36,314 bases of DNA. Source: an uncultured Rhodospirillales bacterium (GTDB taxonomy: Bacteria > Pseudomonadota > Alphaproteobacteria > Azospirillales > Azospirillaceae). Location of the stretch: NCBI GenBank assembly GCA_903931735.1, contig CAIZDL010000261.1, forward strand, positions 1 to 36,314. The letters are read 5' to 3'. The position numbers and the translations under genes were made by a program. The notes below the pieces were generated by a model, which saw nothing but the letters and a program-made list of their open reading frames with translations, made no database searches and was not told the origin of the DNA. This document shows, in pieces, positions 10,215-36,314 of the stretch; the stretch's first letter is position 1; each line of letters opens with the position of its first letter.

Positions 10215-11236
10215 AAAGTCTCCCCACAACATGACTGAAACCCATTTAACTTACAAAGACCAGACACATTTTTGTTCTCACTCACCACCAATTGAGCAAG
10301 GCCATCAATAAATGCCGGAGTAACGCCCACGGTCGGCGCACGCAAATAGGCGGGCACGTTAGCGTCTTCCGCCACTTTTCGATAGTCGATATCAAGTTCA
10401 ACCAATGTTTCCGAGTGTTCAGAGACGAACGCAATCGGCACTACGACCACCGCCACACCGTCCCGGCCGGCGCGAACAATTTCGTCGCTGGTTTCAGGCC
10501 CGATCCATTTTAGCGGTCCGACCCGGCTCTGATAGCAGTTCACCCAATCAAGGGACGGAATACCCAAACCCGCCACCAGCGCTGCCGCAGTCTGCTCACA
10601 TTGCCATTGATAGTGGTCACCAGCCTTGACGATCTTTTCCGGCAAGCCATGGGCGGAAAAGAGCACACGGGTCGGGCCATGATTGGCGGCGGCCTGGTAA
10701 AGCGGTTGGATCAAGCCAACCATCGCGCGAATAAAACCGGGCTCGGTGGGATAGCAACACACCGTCCGTGTCGGCTTTTTGAGTCCAACCTTTCGACATG
10801 CCCGCTGCCAATCGGTAACCGATGAGGCCGAGGTGGTGGTCGACCATTGCGGATAGAGGGGCAACAACACGATACGGTCAGGATCAAACGCCTTAACTTT
10901 TTGCACCACCTCATCCGCAAATGGATGCCAATAGCGCATAACGACGAAGGTTCGGATGCTCTCCTGCTGGCCCAGCGCTGCTTCGAGCGCATTAGCTTGA
11001 GCAAGTGAATTTTCCAATAACGGTGAGCGGCCACCAAGGTGACGGTATATTTCGGTTGCTGGCTTTGCGCGCTTTCTCGATATAAATTCCGCCAGCAAGC
11101 GACGTGGCAGGCCACTAAGCCGAATAATCGCCGGATCGTTAAAGAGATTAAACAAAAATGGTTGCACAGCGGCCAATGAATCGGGACCGCCCATTGAAAA
11201 TAATATTACCGCCAGTTTTTCTTGTGGTTTGCTCAT
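10211..11236 (-). CDS. hemH: Ferrochelatase HemH
   Basis: HemH inserts Fe2+ into protoporphyrin IX, the final step of protohaem synthesis. The 341-residue protein has the family start (LAVILFSMGGPDS), the catalytic His in FSAHGLP (His196) and the acidic metal-path motif SEHSETLVELD (Glu276 region). A C-terminal extension carries Cys328, Cys336 and Cys337, with further Cys at 160-161. This recalls the [2Fe-2S]-binding bacterial ferrochelatases described in Caulobacter and Mycobacterium. Cluster binding here is inference. ATG 11236 overlaps the hemE stop by 4 nt, and its own stop overlaps the hemJ ATG, so the three genes are translationally coupled. Confidence 0.96.
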   Translation of the reverse strand: MSKPQEKLAVILFSMGGPDSLAAVQPFLFNLFNDPAIIRLSGLPRRLLAEFISRKRAKPATEIYRHLGGRSPLLENSLAQANALEAALGQQESIRTFVVMRYWHPFADEVVQKVKAFDPDRIVLLPLYPQWSTTTSASSVTDWQRACRKVGLKKPTRTVCCYPTEPGFIRAMVGLIQPLYQAAANHGPTRVLFSAHGLPEKIVKAGDHYQWQCEQTAAALVAGLGIPSLDWVNCYQSRVGPLKWIGPETSDEIVRAGRDGVAVVVVPIAFVSEHSETLVELDIDYRKVAEDANVPAYLRAPTVGVTPAFIDGLAQLVVSENKNVSGLCKLNGFQSCCGETL

Positions 11237-12279
11237 CGACGATCAGGCCAAGACCGAATTAAATTGGAAAGCTCGGCGACCATCTCGGGTGAGGTTTCCT
11301 GGGTGACACCATGCCCAAGATTGAAGATAAATGGCCCACCACTTAATGCGCGCAAAATCGTGTCGGTCTCTATTCGCATCGCATCGCCCCCGGTTAATAA
11401 TAAGATAGGATCGAGGTTTCCTTGAACGGGGCGATGACACTGAAGCTTATGCGCGGCCCACCGGGGGCAAATTGTCGTATCCAAAGCCACCGCGTCAATT
11501 CCGGTCTCTTGCGTATACTCTTCAATCATTGCACCGGAGTTACGCGGAAAGCCAATTATCGGGATATGGGGGTAACGCGCTTTTAAAGCCGTCACGATCC
11601 GGGCCGTTGGAGCCATCACATAGCGCCTGAAATAGCTGGCCGGAAGAACGCCGGCCCAGCTATCGAATAACTGAACCGCGTTTGCGCCAGCGTCGATCTG
11701 TCGTTCTAAATATTCAATCGTCATATCGACCAGGAGATCAATCAGGCTATCAAACCCAGCTCTATCCTGGTAAGCAAAAGCCTTTACCTTATCCCATTCT
11801 TTTGAGCCACCACCTTGAACCATATAACAAGCGACAGTCCATGGTGAGCCTGCAAAGCCAATCAAACTTGTAGAAGGGGGGAGAGCCGATGATACCAACC
11901 TCACAGTTTGGTAAATCGGTGCCAAAATTTCGTGAAAATTATCTCGCTTTAGTCGCTTTAGGTCATTTGTGCATCGCACAGGCTCAAGTTTTGGCCCTTC
12001 CCCTTCCAGATAATCAAGTTTTTGGGTCAGGCCGTAGGGGACCATCAAAATATCTGAAAATAAAATAGCAGCGTCCATGTTATAGCGACGTAACGGTTGT
12101 AACGTAACCTCGCAAGCGCGTTCGGGGGATAAGCATAGATTGATGAAGCTACCAGCCTGTTGGCGTACCTTACGGTATTCAGGCAGGTAACGACCGGCTT
12201 GGCGCATAAACCAAAAGGGGGGACGGTCAAGGATTTGGCCGGCAAGGGCGGCTAAAAAGGGCTTCTCTGCATCGAGCAT
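11233..12279 (-). CDS. hemE: Uroporphyrinogen III decarboxylase HemE
   Basis: HemE converts uroporphyrinogen III to coproporphyrinogen III by four decarboxylations. With ATG 12279 it is 348 residues, the usual length. It has the conserved FMRQAGRYLPEYR at 24-36 and FSDILMVPYGL with the catalytic Asp76, plus GFAGSPWT and GNLDP. A GTG at 12291 could add four residues, but neither start has a strong ribosome site. Base composition of this gene and hemH is visibly AT-richer than elsewhere. It is the first gene left of the putative oriC, as in Caulobacter and many relatives. Confidence 0.95.
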   Translation of the reverse strand: MLDAEKPFLAALAGQILDRPPFWFMRQAGRYLPEYRKVRQQAGSFINLCLSPERACEVTLQPLRRYNMDAAILFSDILMVPYGLTQKLDYLEGEGPKLEPVRCTNDLKRLKRDNFHEILAPIYQTVRLVSSALPPSTSLIGFAGSPWTVACYMVQGGGSKEWDKVKAFAYQDRAGFDSLIDLLVDMTIEYLERQIDAGANAVQLFDSWAGVLPASYFRRYVMAPTARIVTALKARYPHIPIIGFPRNSGAMIEEYTQETGIDAVALDTTICPRWAAHKLQCHRPVQGNLDPILLLTGGDAMRIETDTILRALSGGPFIFNLGHGVTQETSPEMVAELSNLIRSWPDRR

Positions 12280-12370
12280 CACATCATCCACTGGCTAGCT
12301 TAACAAACTCTCGACCCCACGAATTAGCGACATGAAAGCCAAGTTGGTGGGGAAAACGCAATCCCCTTCT

Positions 12371-12400
12371 TACTTTCTTTTTTTTATAAAGTTTATTGTA
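12371..12400. other. AT-rich DNA unwinding element candidate
   Basis: 26 of 30 bases are A or T, including a run of nine T, in otherwise GC-rich DNA. It lies 25 bp from the first perfect DnaA box, as expected of the duplex-unwinding element. Confidence 0.65.
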
Positions 12401-12425
12401 GTGGATAGTGGATGCCTGTGGAAGC

Positions 12426-12434
12426 TGTGGATAA
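12426..12434 (-). promoter_or_regulatory. DnaA box, perfect consensus
   Basis: TGTGGATAA on the + strand, i.e. TTATCCACA on the minus strand, with all nine positions matching. It is the strong box nearest the AT-rich tract. Confidence 0.85.
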
Positions 12435-12723
12435 CCGTGAGGCGGCATTTTTGTCCCCAATTCGACTCGGTGGTTTGGCCTCATTGGAAAACTGTGGATG
12501 ATTATGAGGGTGACCGTGCCGGTAGTGAGGGTTTGCGCCCGGTTTTCGGGGGTGTGAATCCTGGGGATAACTCGGCCGTGCTCAGAGTTGCTCACAGTAT
12601 GCAAAAGAGTGGCGGGGAGATATCCCGTTGGGTACAAGAGGGGTTGGAACGTGTCGACGGGTGGGGATAAAATTTGGTCGCCCAAACTTATCCCCAGAAG
12701 CGACCGGGTTAATCACAGGGGCC

Positions 12724-12732
12724 TGTGGATAA
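12724..12732 (-). promoter_or_regulatory. DnaA box, perfect consensus, running into the ppsR start codon
   Basis: TGTGGATAA whose last base is the A of the ppsR ATG (12732-12734). DnaA bound here would block ribosome-site DNA or a nearby promoter of ppsR. I see no good Shine-Dalgarno just upstream. Confidence 0.85.
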
Positions 12733-13553
12733 TGCGAAATTTTCACGTCCATTTGATATCCGACGCAACCGGAGAAACGGTTAACAGTATTGCTCGTGCC
12801 TGCGTTAGCCAGTTTGATGATGTTCTTCCAAATGAACATTTATGGAACCTTGTTCGCACTCATAGGCAGTTGGATATGGTGCTAGAGGGTATTCGTACGA
12901 ACCCAGGGCTGGTGATGTTCACGTTGGTCGATGAGGCGTTGCGGCGGCGACTCGAAGATTTTTGCCGCGACAGCCAAACTCCGTGTGTTTCGGTGCTCGA
13001 TCCGTTGATCAGCGCGTTGGGCACGTATCTGGGCACCGAGTCCCAGCGCCAACCGGGCCGGCAGCACATGCTTGATGCCGAGTATTTCAGCCGCATGGAT
13101 GCGATGGATTTCGCGCTGGTTCACGATGACGGTCAGGCCACCTGGGAGTTGCACGAGGCGGACGTGGTGTTGGTCGGGGTGTCGCGGACCTCGAAATCGC
13201 CGACATGTATTTACCTGGCAAATCGGGGTGTTAAGGCCGCCAACGTGCCTTACGTGCCGGGCTGCCCGTTGCCGCCTGAGCTTGATCAGATTGTGAACCC
13301 GCTGGTGGTTGGCTTGACCAACGATCCAGACCGTCTGCTGCAAATTCGGCGGACCCGGCTGCGCTTGCTCAATCCCTCGGTTGAAAGCAATTATGTTGAT
13401 CACGATACCATCAAGCAGGAGGTTATCGAAGCCCGGCGGTTTTTTGCGCGCAAGGGGTGGCCGGTGATTGATGTCTCCCGCCGCTCGATCGAGGAGACCG
13501 CCGCCGAAATTTTGATGCTGCTATCTCAGCACCGCAGCACGCAGGAACCTTGA
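12732..13553 (+). CDS. ppsR: Pyruvate,phosphate dikinase / PEP synthase regulatory kinase-phosphorylase (DUF299)
   Basis: This family phosphorylates and dephosphorylates a Thr of pyruvate,phosphate dikinase or PEP synthase, setting flux between pyruvate and PEP. The 273-residue protein starts NFHVHLISDATGET and carries the family P loop GVSRTSKS at 149-156. The long open frame extends 48 codons upstream through oriC, but homologues begin at MRNFHVHLISD, so I use ATG 12732. There is no clear ribosome site; AGGGG about 12 nt away is weak. The stop overlaps maf by one base (TGATG). Whether the target is PpdK or PpsA cannot be told here. Confidence 0.92.
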   Translation: MRNFHVHLISDATGETVNSIARACVSQFDDVLPNEHLWNLVRTHRQLDMVLEGIRTNPGLVMFTLVDEALRRRLEDFCRDSQTPCVSVLDPLISALGTYLGTESQRQPGRQHMLDAEYFSRMDAMDFALVHDDGQATWELHEADVVLVGVSRTSKSPTCIYLANRGVKAANVPYVPGCPLPPELDQIVNPLVVGLTNDPDRLLQIRRTRLRLLNPSVESNYVDHDTIKQEVIEARRFFARKGWPVIDVSRRSIEETAAEILMLLSQHRSTQEP

Positions 13554-31460: not shown

Positions 31461-33587
31461 TTACAGCGTTCTTGCCACGCGGAAACCGACGCCATCATCC
31501 CGGGTGCTGGGCGCTGCTTTGAAGCGGGTCGCCGAGCGCACCAACCGGGGGCCGTTGCCCCAGGACCCGCCTCGGATAATGCGGCTCGAACAGCCAGGGA
31601 CGGCCTTCGCGCTGCCGTCCGATGGCGCCCCGGTATACCGGTCCTGGAAGCAGTCTTCCACCCATTGCCAAACATTGCCCAGCATGTCGTAAAGCCCGAA
31701 TTTGTTGGGCTGAAAGCTTCCAGACGGCGAAGTATGGTTATAACCATCGGGGCATCGGAATGCCGCCGAGGGATCATTGGCAAAGTCTTTAGCGGAAATA
31801 TCCGTGTTGTTCAAAACATTGGCATAGTCGCAGGCATCATCGCGGCTATTGCCCCAGAAGCGGGCGCTGGTGGTGTTGGCGCGCGCCGCATATTCCCATT
31901 CGGCTTCGCTGGGCAACCGATAGGGGCCTTCGGTGCCAGCGGAAACGGTGTGAGCACCATGAACCTTGGTGTTAAGCCACTGAATATAGCGCTGCGCATC
32001 GGCATAGGAGACGCAAATCACCGGGTCACGATCGGTCTGATCAAACTGCGCGTATCGCCAGCTTTGGGACTGGTCCAATTGCGACTTGCCATCCTGGGCA
32101 ACGAGGCAGCCTATGGGGTTATAGCCGGTGGCTTGAGAAAACGTCGCGAAATCCGCCCGGGTGACGTGGACCTTACCCATCGCAAATGGCCGGGGAATGG
32201 TCACGGTGTGTTGTGGCCGCTCCAGCTTGGCAAACTGTTCCGGCACGCCTTCTCGCTCGGTCTCGGCCGGGGAGGAGCCCATTTGGAAGCTGCCTGACGG
32301 CAGCACAACCATCTCGGGACACTCGGGGCAGTCGCGGAAAACTTCACCGATGCTGCGGCTGCCCGGTGCGGGTGGGCCTGGGGGCGCCGTTACCAATGCA
32401 ATTTCGTCCCGGACAGCCGCTTTGCGGGCGATAGCTTGGGCCCGCAGCAACTCATCATCGTTGCTGTAGGGGTTCTTTTGGGAATAGGCGGTCAGAAAGC
32501 GGTCCCAGACCGCGCGCTTGACTTCCGCCCGGCCGGCAAAGCTGTCGGCTTGGTTAAACGCCGCCCGCATCGACGCCTGCCATTCCTCCCACTTTGCCTT
32601 TCCCTCCGCTTCCTGCTTGGCCAGGTCTTCCACCGTAAATGTGCTGGAGGGCGGGTGCGGCGTGATCACCGTTGGAGGTGGCGGCATTGGAGGGGTCATG
32701 AGGGGAGGTGCCACGGCCTGAGCCGCGACCACCGCAGCCGAAGCTGTCACCATCGGCGTGGCCACGACAGGAGCGGCCACCACGGGGGGGGGCAGGACCG
32801 GCGGTGGGGCCTTGGGGGGCTCCGGCGCTTCGGTGAAACGAAATTCCCCCTTCAGGGGAGAGATTGCCAGCCAGGGTTGCTGCTGGCCGTTGGTGGCGTG
32901 CTCAACCGCGTTGCCGACATCGTTGAACGTATCAAACAGGCTCAGCCCCGGCTTGCGCAAGGCCTTTGCCAGCGCCTCGGTGAAGGGCGACAAATCGCCG
33001 GTGCCGTCGAAGGCGACGTTTCCGGGCTGGGTCGCATAGCTGATCACTGTTCCCGATGGCGCCATCACTTGCGCCAGACCAGACGAAACTGCCCGGAGAC
33101 CTTTTTTCACAAATGGGTTGTTACGACAAGCATCAAGAATAACAATATTAAGGCGGTTGCCGGCGCTAGCCATTTCATCAAGCACAAATGCCACGTCGAC
33201 CAACTCGTATTTCACATCTCCCTCTCCGCTAATATTGGCGGCAACGGGGATCAGATAGTTCTCCCCCTTCACTTGAACGCCGTGGCCGGAATAATAGAAA
33301 AGCCCGACGTTTCCCCCCAACAGCGCCCGTCCGAATTCGCGGATCGCCTTTTCGATCGCGGCCTTGTCGGCGTCGATCAAGGCCTTGCCGCCAATGATCT
33401 GAAACCCGGCGGCGGTTAGTGTTTCGGCCATCAGGCGCGCGTCGGAAGGGGGGTTGGGCAACGGCGGCACGTTTTGGTATTCCCCGTTGCCGATCACCAG
33501 CGCCACTCTTCCTTCTGCAAAAGCTTGAGACGGGCTGGTAACCAGTCCCCACACCATCGCTCCCAGGACCATCAACAGCCAGCGCAT
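31461..33587 (-). CDS. Exported caspase (peptidase C14)-SUMF1/FGE-like fusion protein
   Basis: A 708-residue multidomain protein. A signal peptide (MRWLLMVLGAMVWGLVTSP, cleavage near QAFA-E) leads into a caspase-like domain (about 27-250) starting RVALVIGNGEYQ. The catalytic dyad is intact: His102 in YYSGHGVQ and Cys154 in ILDACRNNPF. A Pro/Ala/Val-rich linker (about 252-316) and a charged helical stretch (about 317-400) follow, then a SUMF1/formylglycine-enzyme-like domain (about 420-705) starting MVVLPSGSFQMGSS. It has LPSEAEWEYAAR, GLYDMLGNVWQWVED and RGGSW near residue 672. The catalytic cysteines of true formylglycine-generating enzyme are absent there, so this domain is probably a binding module. 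ATG 33587 is chosen for its signal peptide; the frame is open to 33740. Substrate is unknown. Confidence 0.88.
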   Translation of the reverse strand: MRWLLMVLGAMVWGLVTSPSQAFAEGRVALVIGNGEYQNVPPLPNPPSDARLMAETLTAAGFQIIGGKALIDADKAAIEKAIREFGRALLGGNVGLFYYSGHGVQVKGENYLIPVAANISGEGDVKYELVDVAFVLDEMASAGNRLNIVILDACRNNPFVKKGLRAVSSGLAQVMAPSGTVISYATQPGNVAFDGTGDLSPFTEALAKALRKPGLSLFDTFNDVGNAVEHATNGQQQPWLAISPLKGEFRFTEAPEPPKAPPPVLPPPVVAAPVVATPMVTASAAVVAAQAVAPPLMTPPMPPPPTVITPHPPSSTFTVEDLAKQEAEGKAKWEEWQASMRAAFNQADSFAGRAEVKRAVWDRFLTAYSQKNPYSNDDELLRAQAIARKAAVRDEIALVTAPPGPPAPGSRSIGEVFRDCPECPEMVVLPSGSFQMGSSPAETEREGVPEQFAKLERPQHTVTIPRPFAMGKVHVTRADFATFSQATGYNPIGCLVAQDGKSQLDQSQSWRYAQFDQTDRDPVICVSYADAQRYIQWLNTKVHGAHTVSAGTEGPYRLPSEAEWEYAARANTTSARFWGNSRDDACDYANVLNNTDISAKDFANDPSAAFRCPDGYNHTSPSGSFQPNKFGLYDMLGNVWQWVEDCFQDRYTGAPSDGSAKAVPGCSSRIIRGGSWGNGPRLVRSATRFKAAPSTRDDGVGFRVARTL

Positions 33588-33933: not shown

Positions 33934-34098
33934 TCACGAATTGTTGTTATCGCCACCTAAATCCAGTCGCCATGAGTCAAGGCCGGCTCGCAGTCCATCG
34001 CGGGCTTCGATGATGAAGGCCTCGTTGGCCTCGGCCAGAATCCGTGCCCCCTGCCGCGTGGAGATCTTCATCCCCTTCATTGCCAGCCGTTTGAACAT
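33934..34098 (-). CDS. Small hypothetical protein, 54 residues
   Basis: Reading ATG 34098 to TGA 33934 gives a 54-residue basic-to-acidic peptide (MFKRLAMKGMKISTRQGA... ending LGGDNNNS) that looks helical and has no signal peptide. I do not recognise it. In its favour, the first 30 or so codons end mostly in G or C, like true genes of this genome, although the surrounding DNA is AT-rich, and AAGG lies just before the start. It could also be the surviving end of a decayed larger gene: an in-frame stop lies five codons upstream. Confidence 0.4.
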   Translation of the reverse strand: MFKRLAMKGMKISTRQGARILAEANEAFIIEARDGLRAGLDSWRLDLGGDNNNS

Positions 34099-34316: not shown

Positions 34317-36107
34317 GTGGAAGAGTGCCTGGATGGGAAAAACGCTGGCGAGCAAGGCGTAAAGGGTGGCGCCCGTGATGGCAGCGCGGGCTTGAACAAG
34401 CGGGTGGCACGTCTCTGCGCCTTGGGCGTTGGCGTTTTGGGGGTGGGGTTCGGGGTGCTTTGCGGCTCCCCCGCGAGCGCTGTTGCCCAGTTTTTCGACC
34501 CGACGCTCCGGCTCCGGCAGGAGGAAAGCCGCCCGAACCTTGTTCCCGACGCCGGGCCGGGTATTACCATCCCCCGGTCAACGCCGGAGACCGCTCCGGC
34601 CGGGGCAAGCAAGCTGTTCCTTGATTTGAAGGCGGTCACCTTCACCGGGGCTTCGGTATATTCCGCAAGTGATCTGCAAGACTTATTTAGTGATGTCGTC
34701 GGGAAGCGCGTTAGCGTTGCTTCGCTGTTTGAGCGAGTCGCCGCAGTAAGTAAGCTATACCGCCGGGATGGCTATATTCTAACCAGGGCCCTGGTACCCG
34801 CACAAAAAATTGCCAATGGTGTTTTTCAAGTCCAGATTATCGAGGGCTTTGTTAAGGATGTCGCTCTTGAGGGGGACTTTCAAAGTATAGAGGGGCTGGT
34901 CCGGCAGTATACTGATCATATTGCTGAAGCAAAACCGGTCAGGATTGCGGATATCGAGCGCTACCTTTTGCTGGTTAACGACATTCCTGGGATTACAGCT
35001 AAAGGAACACTGCGTGCGGGTGCCGGTGAAGTCGGTGCATCGCAGCTTGTTGTGACCATTACTCATAAGCCTGTCGATGCTCAGTTGTCGGGAGACAATC
35101 GCGGCACGCGGTTTGTCGGCCCGATCACGGGTATGGTGAGCGTTGGGGAAAATTCGCTGGCGGGACTAGGTGAGCGGCTGGAGGCGGTTTATCTCAGCAG
35201 CGCTGATTTTCACCAGACGAGCCTGCAACAGTTTCGCTATCAGCAGAAGATCGGCGGCGATGGTCTCTCGGCGCAAATCACTGGGTCGACCTCGAGAACA
35301 CGACCCGGCTATACTTTGCAGCCCCTCAAAATAGTTGGCAATATCGTCCGGGTAGATGGTCAAATCGAGTATCCGATAATTCGTTCCCGGGATATGAACC
35401 TCAAGACCACGTTTGGTGGTGAGTACATAAATTCGTCACTGAGCGTTCTTGGCGCCAAATTCTCCGAGGATATGATTCGTACGGTCTATGGAACCGTTCG
35501 TTATGACTATCTGGATTCGTTTGGTGGTCGCACCTTCTTGGGGGCCGGGTTCAGGTACGGCCTTGATTCGTTAGGGGCGACGAGAAAGGGTGATACCCTG
35601 GCATCGCGCTTTGGTGCCGGCAGTGGGTTCACGGTCCTGAAAGGTGATTTGGCGCGGATGCAGTCCGTCGGGTCATATTTCGGTGATTTCGTGAATGTAA
35701 ACCTTCTCGTTGTGGGCACGGGACAGCATGCGCTTGATAGTTTGATGGTACCCGAGCAGTTTGCGGTTGGGGGCAATGTTGTCGGCCGTGGTTATGATCC
35801 TTCGGCGGTGACATCGGATAGTGGCTTTGCCGCCACCGGGGAAATCCAGACCAACTTCCGCACCGATTTAAGTTATCTCGCTAATGTTCAGCACTATGTT
35901 TTCGCGGATACGGCGGCCACCTACAACCGGACATCTCCCAATGGCCCCGAAAAGTTGCTGTCCTATGGCACAGGGTTGCGACTGACATTCAATGAAAATT
36001 TTTCAATGAATTTTGAAGCGGCTCGCCCTCAATGGCGGCTGACAACACAGCCAAAGGACCAAGCCCTTCCTTGGGTTGGTTTTATCTCCGCAGCTCTTCG
36101 TTATTAA
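34317..36107 (+). CDS. Two-partner secretion outer-membrane transporter, TpsB/ShlB/FhaC type
   Basis: A 596-residue Omp85-superfamily transporter. TpsB proteins export a large TpsA passenger across the outer membrane through a 16-strand barrel. A signal peptide (KRVARL, then LGVGVLGVGFGVL, cleavage near ASAVAQ) follows an unusually long 26-residue lead. A proline-rich linker, a first POTRA domain (about 103-178) with LYRRDGYILTRALVP and a second POTRA come next, then the barrel. The barrel includes VVGRGYDPS (VRGY-like loop-6 motif), and the protein ends in ALRY, an aromatic C-terminus for Bam insertion. The start is GTG 34317 with GGAGGG 6 nt upstream; TTG 34392 would give a short classical signal peptide. 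No TpsA gene is visible within the window. Confidence 0.88.
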   Translation: MEECLDGKNAGEQGVKGGARDGSAGLNKRVARLCALGVGVLGVGFGVLCGSPASAVAQFFDPTLRLRQEESRPNLVPDAGPGITIPRSTPETAPAGASKLFLDLKAVTFTGASVYSASDLQDLFSDVVGKRVSVASLFERVAAVSKLYRRDGYILTRALVPAQKIANGVFQVQIIEGFVKDVALEGDFQSIEGLVRQYTDHIAEAKPVRIADIERYLLLVNDIPGITAKGTLRAGAGEVGASQLVVTITHKPVDAQLSGDNRGTRFVGPITGMVSVGENSLAGLGERLEAVYLSSADFHQTSLQQFRYQQKIGGDGLSAQITGSTSRTRPGYTLQPLKIVGNIVRVDGQIEYPIIRSRDMNLKTTFGGEYINSSLSVLGAKFSEDMIRTVYGTVRYDYLDSFGGRTFLGAGFRYGLDSLGATRKGDTLASRFGAGSGFTVLKGDLARMQSVGSYFGDFVNVNLLVVGTGQHALDSLMVPEQFAVGGNVVGRGYDPSAVTSDSGFAATGEIQTNFRTDLSYLANVQHYVFADTAATYNRTSPNGPEKLLSYGTGLRLTFNENFSMNFEAARPQWRLTTQPKDQALPWVGFISAALRY

Positions 36108-36225
36108 GCCCGAGGCCGCCATCTAAACTTTAGTTTGGAGCAAGAAAATTATGGCACGCTCGAAAAAGCCCCTGGAGCGAGTTGCATAATTCACGATGAG
36201 ACTGATTTTAGGGCTATGTGAGCGT
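36108..36225. other. Gap between the TpsB gene and a probable insertion element
   Basis: It contains a 12-codon open frame (ATG 36151 to TAA 36189, MARSKKPLERVA) with GGAG about 10 nt upstream. It may be the 5' end of a gene broken where the element at the right edge begins, or chance. No element terminal repeat can be confirmed with only one end in view. Confidence 0.3.
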
Positions 36226-36314
36226 TCATGCTGTTCGATTTTCAGGTTTCAACGCCCGAAGAATTTGATCGACAGTGAGCGCGAGCATTCCGAACATGAG
36301 GTGACACTTGACCT
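36226..36314 (-). CDS. C-terminal fragment, probable transposase
   Basis: The minus strand reads in one frame from the window edge to TGA 36228-36226, giving VKCHLMFGMLALTVDQILRA and then LKPENRTA. A short hydrophobic helix with HLMFGMLAL...DQILR just before the stop is reminiscent of DDE transposase C-termini, but 29 residues cannot settle the family. It would be the 3' end of an insertion sequence lying mostly beyond the window. Confidence 0.45.
   Translation of the reverse strand, partial: VKCHLMFGMLALTVDQILRALKPENRTA

Follow-up and report, generated by a model that had tools for sequence, protein, structure and literature searches.

Caspase–FGE-sulfatase fusions have been known since 2012, when Asplund-Samuelsson described the class and a combination of proteolysis with formylglycine formation was suggested for it (PMC3501461); MaOC4 of Microcystis belongs to the same class (PMC5756287). 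Here we examine a stretch of 36 314 nucleotides from an uncultured Rhodospirillales bacterium (the window), in which one open reading frame, P0001, is a further member of this known class, with an N-terminal Peptidase_C14 domain and a C-terminal FGE-sulfatase (SUMF1) domain in one chain (Table 1). Our preferred reading, held with moderate confidence, is that P0001 is an exported cysteine protease of the caspase family with a MALT1-like fold, that a flexible tether joins it to a non-FGE, PvdO-type SUMF1 tail which would bind an envelope or extracellular ligand, and that the protein was formed by tail exchange.

Table 1. Features of the caspase–SUMF1 gene and its divergent neighbour (window coordinates).
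Feature	Position	Strand	Basis or remark
P0001 caspase–SUMF1 fusion ORF	31461..33587	-	708 aa, ATG start, no internal stop
Signal-peptide-like N-terminus, residues 1-24	33516..33587	-	predicted cut after AFA24; no lipobox
Peptidase_C14 caspase domain, residues 27-246	32850..33509	-	Pfam, AF2 model, Foldseek to MALT1
Putative catalytic His102 in YYSGHG	33282..33284	-	sequence
Putative catalytic Cys154 in LDACRNN	33126..33128	-	sole cysteine of caspase half
Pro/Ala/Val tether, residues 260-323, without Lys/Arg	32619..32810	-	sequence and AF2 model
Helical stretch, residues 319-400	32388..32633	-	AF2 model, moderate confidence
SUMF1-fold (PvdO-like) domain, residues 422-706	31470..32324	-	Pfam, Foldseek; no FGE catalytic pair
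Hypervariable SUMF1-family segment, residues 677-700	31488..31559	-	site of catalytic cysteines in true FGEs
TpsB/ShlB-type transporter gene	34317..36107	+	divergent neighbour, judged outside the system

Domains, active site and compartment

The two halves are the only Pfam domains of P0001 (Peptidase_C14 with E 1.2e-36 and 127 bits against a curated cut-off of 21.4; FGE-sulfatase with E 4.4e-64, far over its cut-off), and the death and Ig domains of the type I paracaspase MALT1 are lacking. An AlphaFold2 (AF2) model built from a 31-row alignment is confident in both domains (pLDDT mostly >90), and Foldseek leads from the front half to MALT1 (TM 0.78 by target length, caspase-only chain 3v4o) and from the back half to PvdO, which bears out the two domains of the original prediction. 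Orthocaspases have a p20 part without a p10 domain; in P0001 the model goes on with a strand at 180-184, helices at 201-231 and a strand at 239-242, with 238 columns aligned to the MALT1 caspase chain. The dyad of His102 and Cys154, earlier described as intact, is indeed so. In a sequence alignment D49, D152 and D194 pair with acidic residues of MALT1, whose Asp365, Asp462 and Glu500 form the S1 pocket for arginine; because these acids are retained, cleavage after Arg or Lys would be anticipated for P0001, which is probably active as a protease. The long Pro/Ala linker likewise held up, as a 64-residue Pro/Ala/Val tether that is free of charged residues over 260-319 and disordered in the model (pLDDT <50 over residues 270-317). 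The idea that its lack of Lys and Arg might serve as a shield against self-cleavage was dropped, as such runs are not consistent among other fusions.

The N-terminus, MRWLLMVLGAMVWGLVTSPSQAFA/EGR, resembles a Sec signal peptide, with AFA/EGR directly ahead of the first caspase strand. The signal peptide that had been predicted was thus recovered, by a simple rule-based test rather than SignalP; of 64 caspase ORFs the rule picks out 50, and of 20 caspase–SUMF1 ORFs 18, against a control rate of 3% (9 of 286) for windows taken from the interior of these proteins. Eight cysteines lie in residues 409-708 as opposed to a single one, Cys154, in the caspase half, and an oxidising compartment would fit P0001 because its cysteines are gathered in the tail while the caspase half keeps only the catalytic one. 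Some related fusions carry PG_binding_1 or SH3, which are cell-wall modules, between the halves. An exported protease whose tail is a binding module is our best reading of these features. It is conceivable that P0001 is instead a protease that acts in cell death from within the cytoplasm, a role proposed for many prokaryotic caspases, with the N-terminus serving as a membrane anchor and the domain facing inward, for which there is precedent in the literature on caspase roles as well as a weak PADLOC ‘caspase’ match. However, the AFA cleavage motif directly ahead of the caspase domain, the cysteine distribution and the cell-wall modules of related fusions argue against such an orientation, which we regard as quite improbable. 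A defence system was also considered and set aside, as PADLOC gave the weak caspase match only.

The SUMF1 tail and its variable segment

In true FGEs the segment that follows the GGS motif contains both catalytic cysteines. In P0001 this segment reads RGGSWGNGPRLVRSATRFKAAPSTRDDGVGFR, with both cysteines absent, and the two-cysteine signature of FGEs is missing from the tail (RGGSWGNGPRLVRSATR), there being no cysteine after Cys666 up to the C-terminus; the SUMF1 fold without catalytic cysteines that had been read from the sequence is thereby confirmed. We collected 30 caspase–SUMF1 ORFs (21 + 9), and among the 22 fused domains in which the segment is readable (13 + 9) none has the pair, with a single cysteine occurring in one (L133). 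The pair is detectable by this test, because the standalone SUMF1 protein L040, our positive control, shows it (KGGSFLCSPDFCARF). Judged by its residues, the SUMF1 domain of P0001 is not a formylglycine-generating enzyme, and FGE function was rejected for the absence of both defining cysteines. A protein that joins proteolysis to sulfatase activation through formylglycine generation, as speculated in 2012, has in its favour the Pfam family name, FGE-sulfatase, and the suggestion in PMC3501461, but with both cysteines gone from P0001 and the pair missing in 22/22 readable fusion domains we consider this reading almost certainly wrong. The absence of the pair in the sampled fusions therefore argues against the combined idea of PMC3501461, at least among the relatives sampled. 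Caspase–FGE fusions are annotated and discussed as formylglycine makers; because the pair is missing in every readable fusion tail, the tail would be something else.

The first Foldseek match of the tail, ahead of FGEs, is PvdO (TM 0.92 by target length), which is also the closest solved structure, at 38% identity in the structural alignment. Mutants in pvdO accumulate dihydropyoverdine, and PvdO is needed for an oxidation step even though it lacks the cysteine pair (PMC6206403). By analogy, P0001 could be a two-enzyme protein, in which the SUMF1 half would be a non-heme oxidase, PvdO-like or otherwise, and would be regulated by the caspase half or have its substrate processed by it. Such a pairing appears unlikely to us, as the tail scores 223.8 bits against the cut-off of 500 for the PvdO equivalog (NCBIfam), the SUMF1 family varies most in the FGE active-site segment, and purified PvdO is inactive, with no detectable cofactor (PMC6206403).

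This variability is sharply placed. Across 108 SUMF1 domains, framework positions R672, G673, R684, R688, R703 and others are nearly invariant, whereas of the 30 columns that vary most, 13 fall in the 24-column segment 677-700 (hypergeometric p ~1e-7, for a segment chosen after viewing the data). FGE-type C-lectin folds are known ligand-binding scaffolds, and in other bacteria retroelements diversify them at this same site (PMC5006420, PMC10907252). Variability of the segment that holds the catalytic cysteines in FGEs would fit recognition, although loop variability can also arise without binding, and the tail of P0001 most likely serves as a binding module. One might also envisage a sensor whose hypervariability is generated by a retroelement (DGR), as with FGE-type C-lectin domains elsewhere, since the fold resembles Treponema TvpA, the variable segment lies at the right place, and DGR targets with caspase domains are known (PMC7517822). 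Yet in the genome of P0001 (an assembly of 291 contigs) we detected neither a reverse transcriptase nor a template that copies the gene's 3′ end, the best other match being 32 bases; on these grounds a DGR variable protein was rejected, and we give this explanation next to no chance.

In our preferred reading, then, a bacterial caspase-family cysteine protease would be exported from the cytoplasm, its SUMF1 tail would bind an envelope or extracellular ligand on a flexible tether, and the ligand-bound tail would bring the protease to its substrate, to be cut after Arg or Lys; the computations themselves show the ORF, its domains and predicted folds, the intact dyad, the missing FGE cysteines, the tail exchange and, at the surveyed loci, the lack of TpsB linkage, whereas export, activity, ligand binding and substrate are what we infer. 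On this reading P0001 itself arose through an exchange of tails in a caspase subfamily whose members bear many different ones.

Locus context and tail exchange

As noted in the original prediction, a TpsB gene (ShlB and POTRA_2 by Pfam) adjoins the caspase gene divergently, 729 bp away. This adjacency might suggest that P0001 is an effector that exits through the two-partner transporter next to it. However, P0001 has no Pfam match to an N-terminal TPS (haemagglutinin-activity) domain such as TpsA substrates carry, no TpsB-like or FHA-like gene was found near the other caspase–SUMF1 loci (all surveyed, with flanks of ~1.5-7 kb, a limited survey), both other TpsB genes of the same genome adjoin FHA-like TpsA genes, and the TpsA partner of the neighbour may lie past the contig end, 207 bp downstream of tpsB (36108-36314). 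Export by this route is highly improbable, and the partnership was rejected because the surveyed fusion loci, with their short flanks, have no TpsB or FHA-like gene. Genus mates carry no close TpsB, only one 33% homologue elsewhere in the sister genome G002, and third-position GC (tpsB 0.576 < caspase gene 0.698 < pyrD 0.783) is lower in tpsB, which would be in keeping with a separate history. The surveyed context is random across relatives as far as TpsB is concerned, and the proposed tie falls, on the missing TPS domain, the divergent orientation, the other fusion loci, the genus mates and a prophage-like region at the site in G002; the TpsB gene looks like a chance neighbour. The protein itself is unaffected: what survives of the prediction is a protease of extracytoplasmic type that has its dyad in place, resembles MALT1 in fold, keeps the acids of the S1 pocket and carries a non-FGE SUMF1-fold tail, best read as a recognition module.

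In G002 the pyrD side is syntenic (pyrD 85% identical), and a phage-like region, so read from ORF inspection rather than a profile search, replaces the caspase and TpsB genes; the segment that had been called accessory-looking is accessory, on the strength of this replacement. Other genomes of the genus have different genes at the site. The phage-like genes of G002 (L154:1-12081) lie directly upstream of pyrD, at the place of the caspase and TpsB genes in the window, and this side of pyrD may be a hot spot for insertions. Between the caspase and tpsB genes is a 54-codon ORF (33934-34098, - strand; MFKRLAMKGMKISTRQGARILAEANEAF...), perhaps a gene remnant.

Within the order, the nearest caspase halves carry DUF4189-type tails, with matches of E 1e-90 or better in 24 of 82 genomes, its own included; 18 of the 19 newly fetched ORFs have such a tail and none has SUMF1, and the full-length gene was found in a single genome, with no ortholog among the order's 82 genomes. 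In a caspase tree with class-wide relatives the sister of P0001 is the Sel1-tailed L211 (66% identity, support 99/88), and the 13-member clade around it (100/99) includes DUF4189, SH3, SH3 plus rhodanese, LCCL and one other SUMF1 tail. Descent from a DUF4189 paralog was dropped, as a first tree had set P0001 beside the DUF4189 clade and the class-wide relatives moved it beside the Sel1-tailed protein. The SUMF1 label undergoes at least six changes on well-supported branches of the caspase tree, and on the SUMF1 tree the label ‘fused to caspase’ changes 13 times, about as often as a shuffled label (mean 13.4), the tail of P0001 being closest to free-standing SUMF1 proteins (L041, 55%). Because mixed tails occur in one caspase clade and the fusion label is scattered on the SUMF1 tree, tail exchange in this clade is well supported, which applies to the exchange itself and not to its direction.

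It is tempting to extend this picture to a periplasmic system of caspases with exchangeable sensors, in which the protease would be recombined with SUMF1, Sel1, DUF4189, SH3 and LCCL tails, the former active-site loop of SUMF1 would have become a diversified ligand-recognition surface, and the products might serve outside the cytoplasm to sense or counter invaders or damage to the envelope; we offer this as a tentative possibility. That the gene is instead a decaying or unexpressed relic of gene shuffling, without function, would agree with its accessory site and with its presence in a single one of the order's 82 genomes. This is improbable, as the frame is full, the dyad, S1 acids and SUMF1 framework are conserved, and a purine-rich stretch lies ahead of the ATG.

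Several other regions deserve mention. Tandem caspase gene clusters, with SUMF1 tails on some genes and not on others, occur at L249:2687-9411 (G365) and also in L066, L067, L071 and L092, and caspases with an SH3 domain and two successive SUMF1 domains at L068:2943-6137 and L238:535-3765. The genome of P0001 has eight Peptidase_C14 matches in total, and on its contig C192 a WD40-caspase gene and a caspase-DUF4384 gene are adjacent (L140:3181-8352). Elsewhere in the window there are 11 DnaA-box matches (TTATCCACA, at most one mismatch), a number reached in the whole window by 0 of 100 shuffles, and six of them fall within 307 bp (12426-12732); cumulative GC skew has its minimum at ~12 kb, and rho, hemH and hemE stand beside the cluster. 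The region 12292-12735, which adjoins hemE (11233-12291), looks like a chromosomal replication origin.

Comparison with known systems

MALT1 and P0001 share the caspase fold, the DxCR motif and the acidic S1 residues, and P0001 may, like MALT1, have p20 and p10-like parts in one piece; P0001 differs in its signal-peptide-like N-terminus and in lacking death and Ig domains, and is 24-26% identical to MALT1. Caspase–DUF4189 proteins of the same order are of the exported type and 55-64% identical in the caspase half, but end in DUF4189 where P0001 ends in SUMF1. With PvdO of Pseudomonas aeruginosa (5hha) the tail has in common the SUMF1 fold, the DCxxCPEM motif, a periplasmic type and the lack of an FGE cysteine pair, and differs in being fused to a protease and in falling far under the PvdO equivalog cut-off; with FGE (SUMF1) it shares the fold, without the catalytic cysteines. 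DGR variable proteins of the FGE/C-lectin type (TvpA, Mtd) match P0001 in fold and in the position of the variable segment, a likeness limited to fold and surface because no reverse transcriptase or template repeat was found in its genome.

The closest systems are the described caspase–FGE-sulfatase fusions (PMC3501461, PMC5756287), which have the same domain order, an intact dyad in many cases and, for Microcystis, a suggestion of domain swapping. A testable question follows, namely what exported caspases bind and whether they cut it, and the swapped tails of one caspase clade provide a natural set of proteins for binding and cleavage tests. Compared with the described fusions, P0001 has a tail of PvdO type with neither FGE cysteine, and its caspase half comes from a clade in which other tails prevail; what our analysis adds to the known class is that the sampled fusions lack the cysteine pair, that one segment of the SUMF1 family is hypervariable and that tails are swapped.
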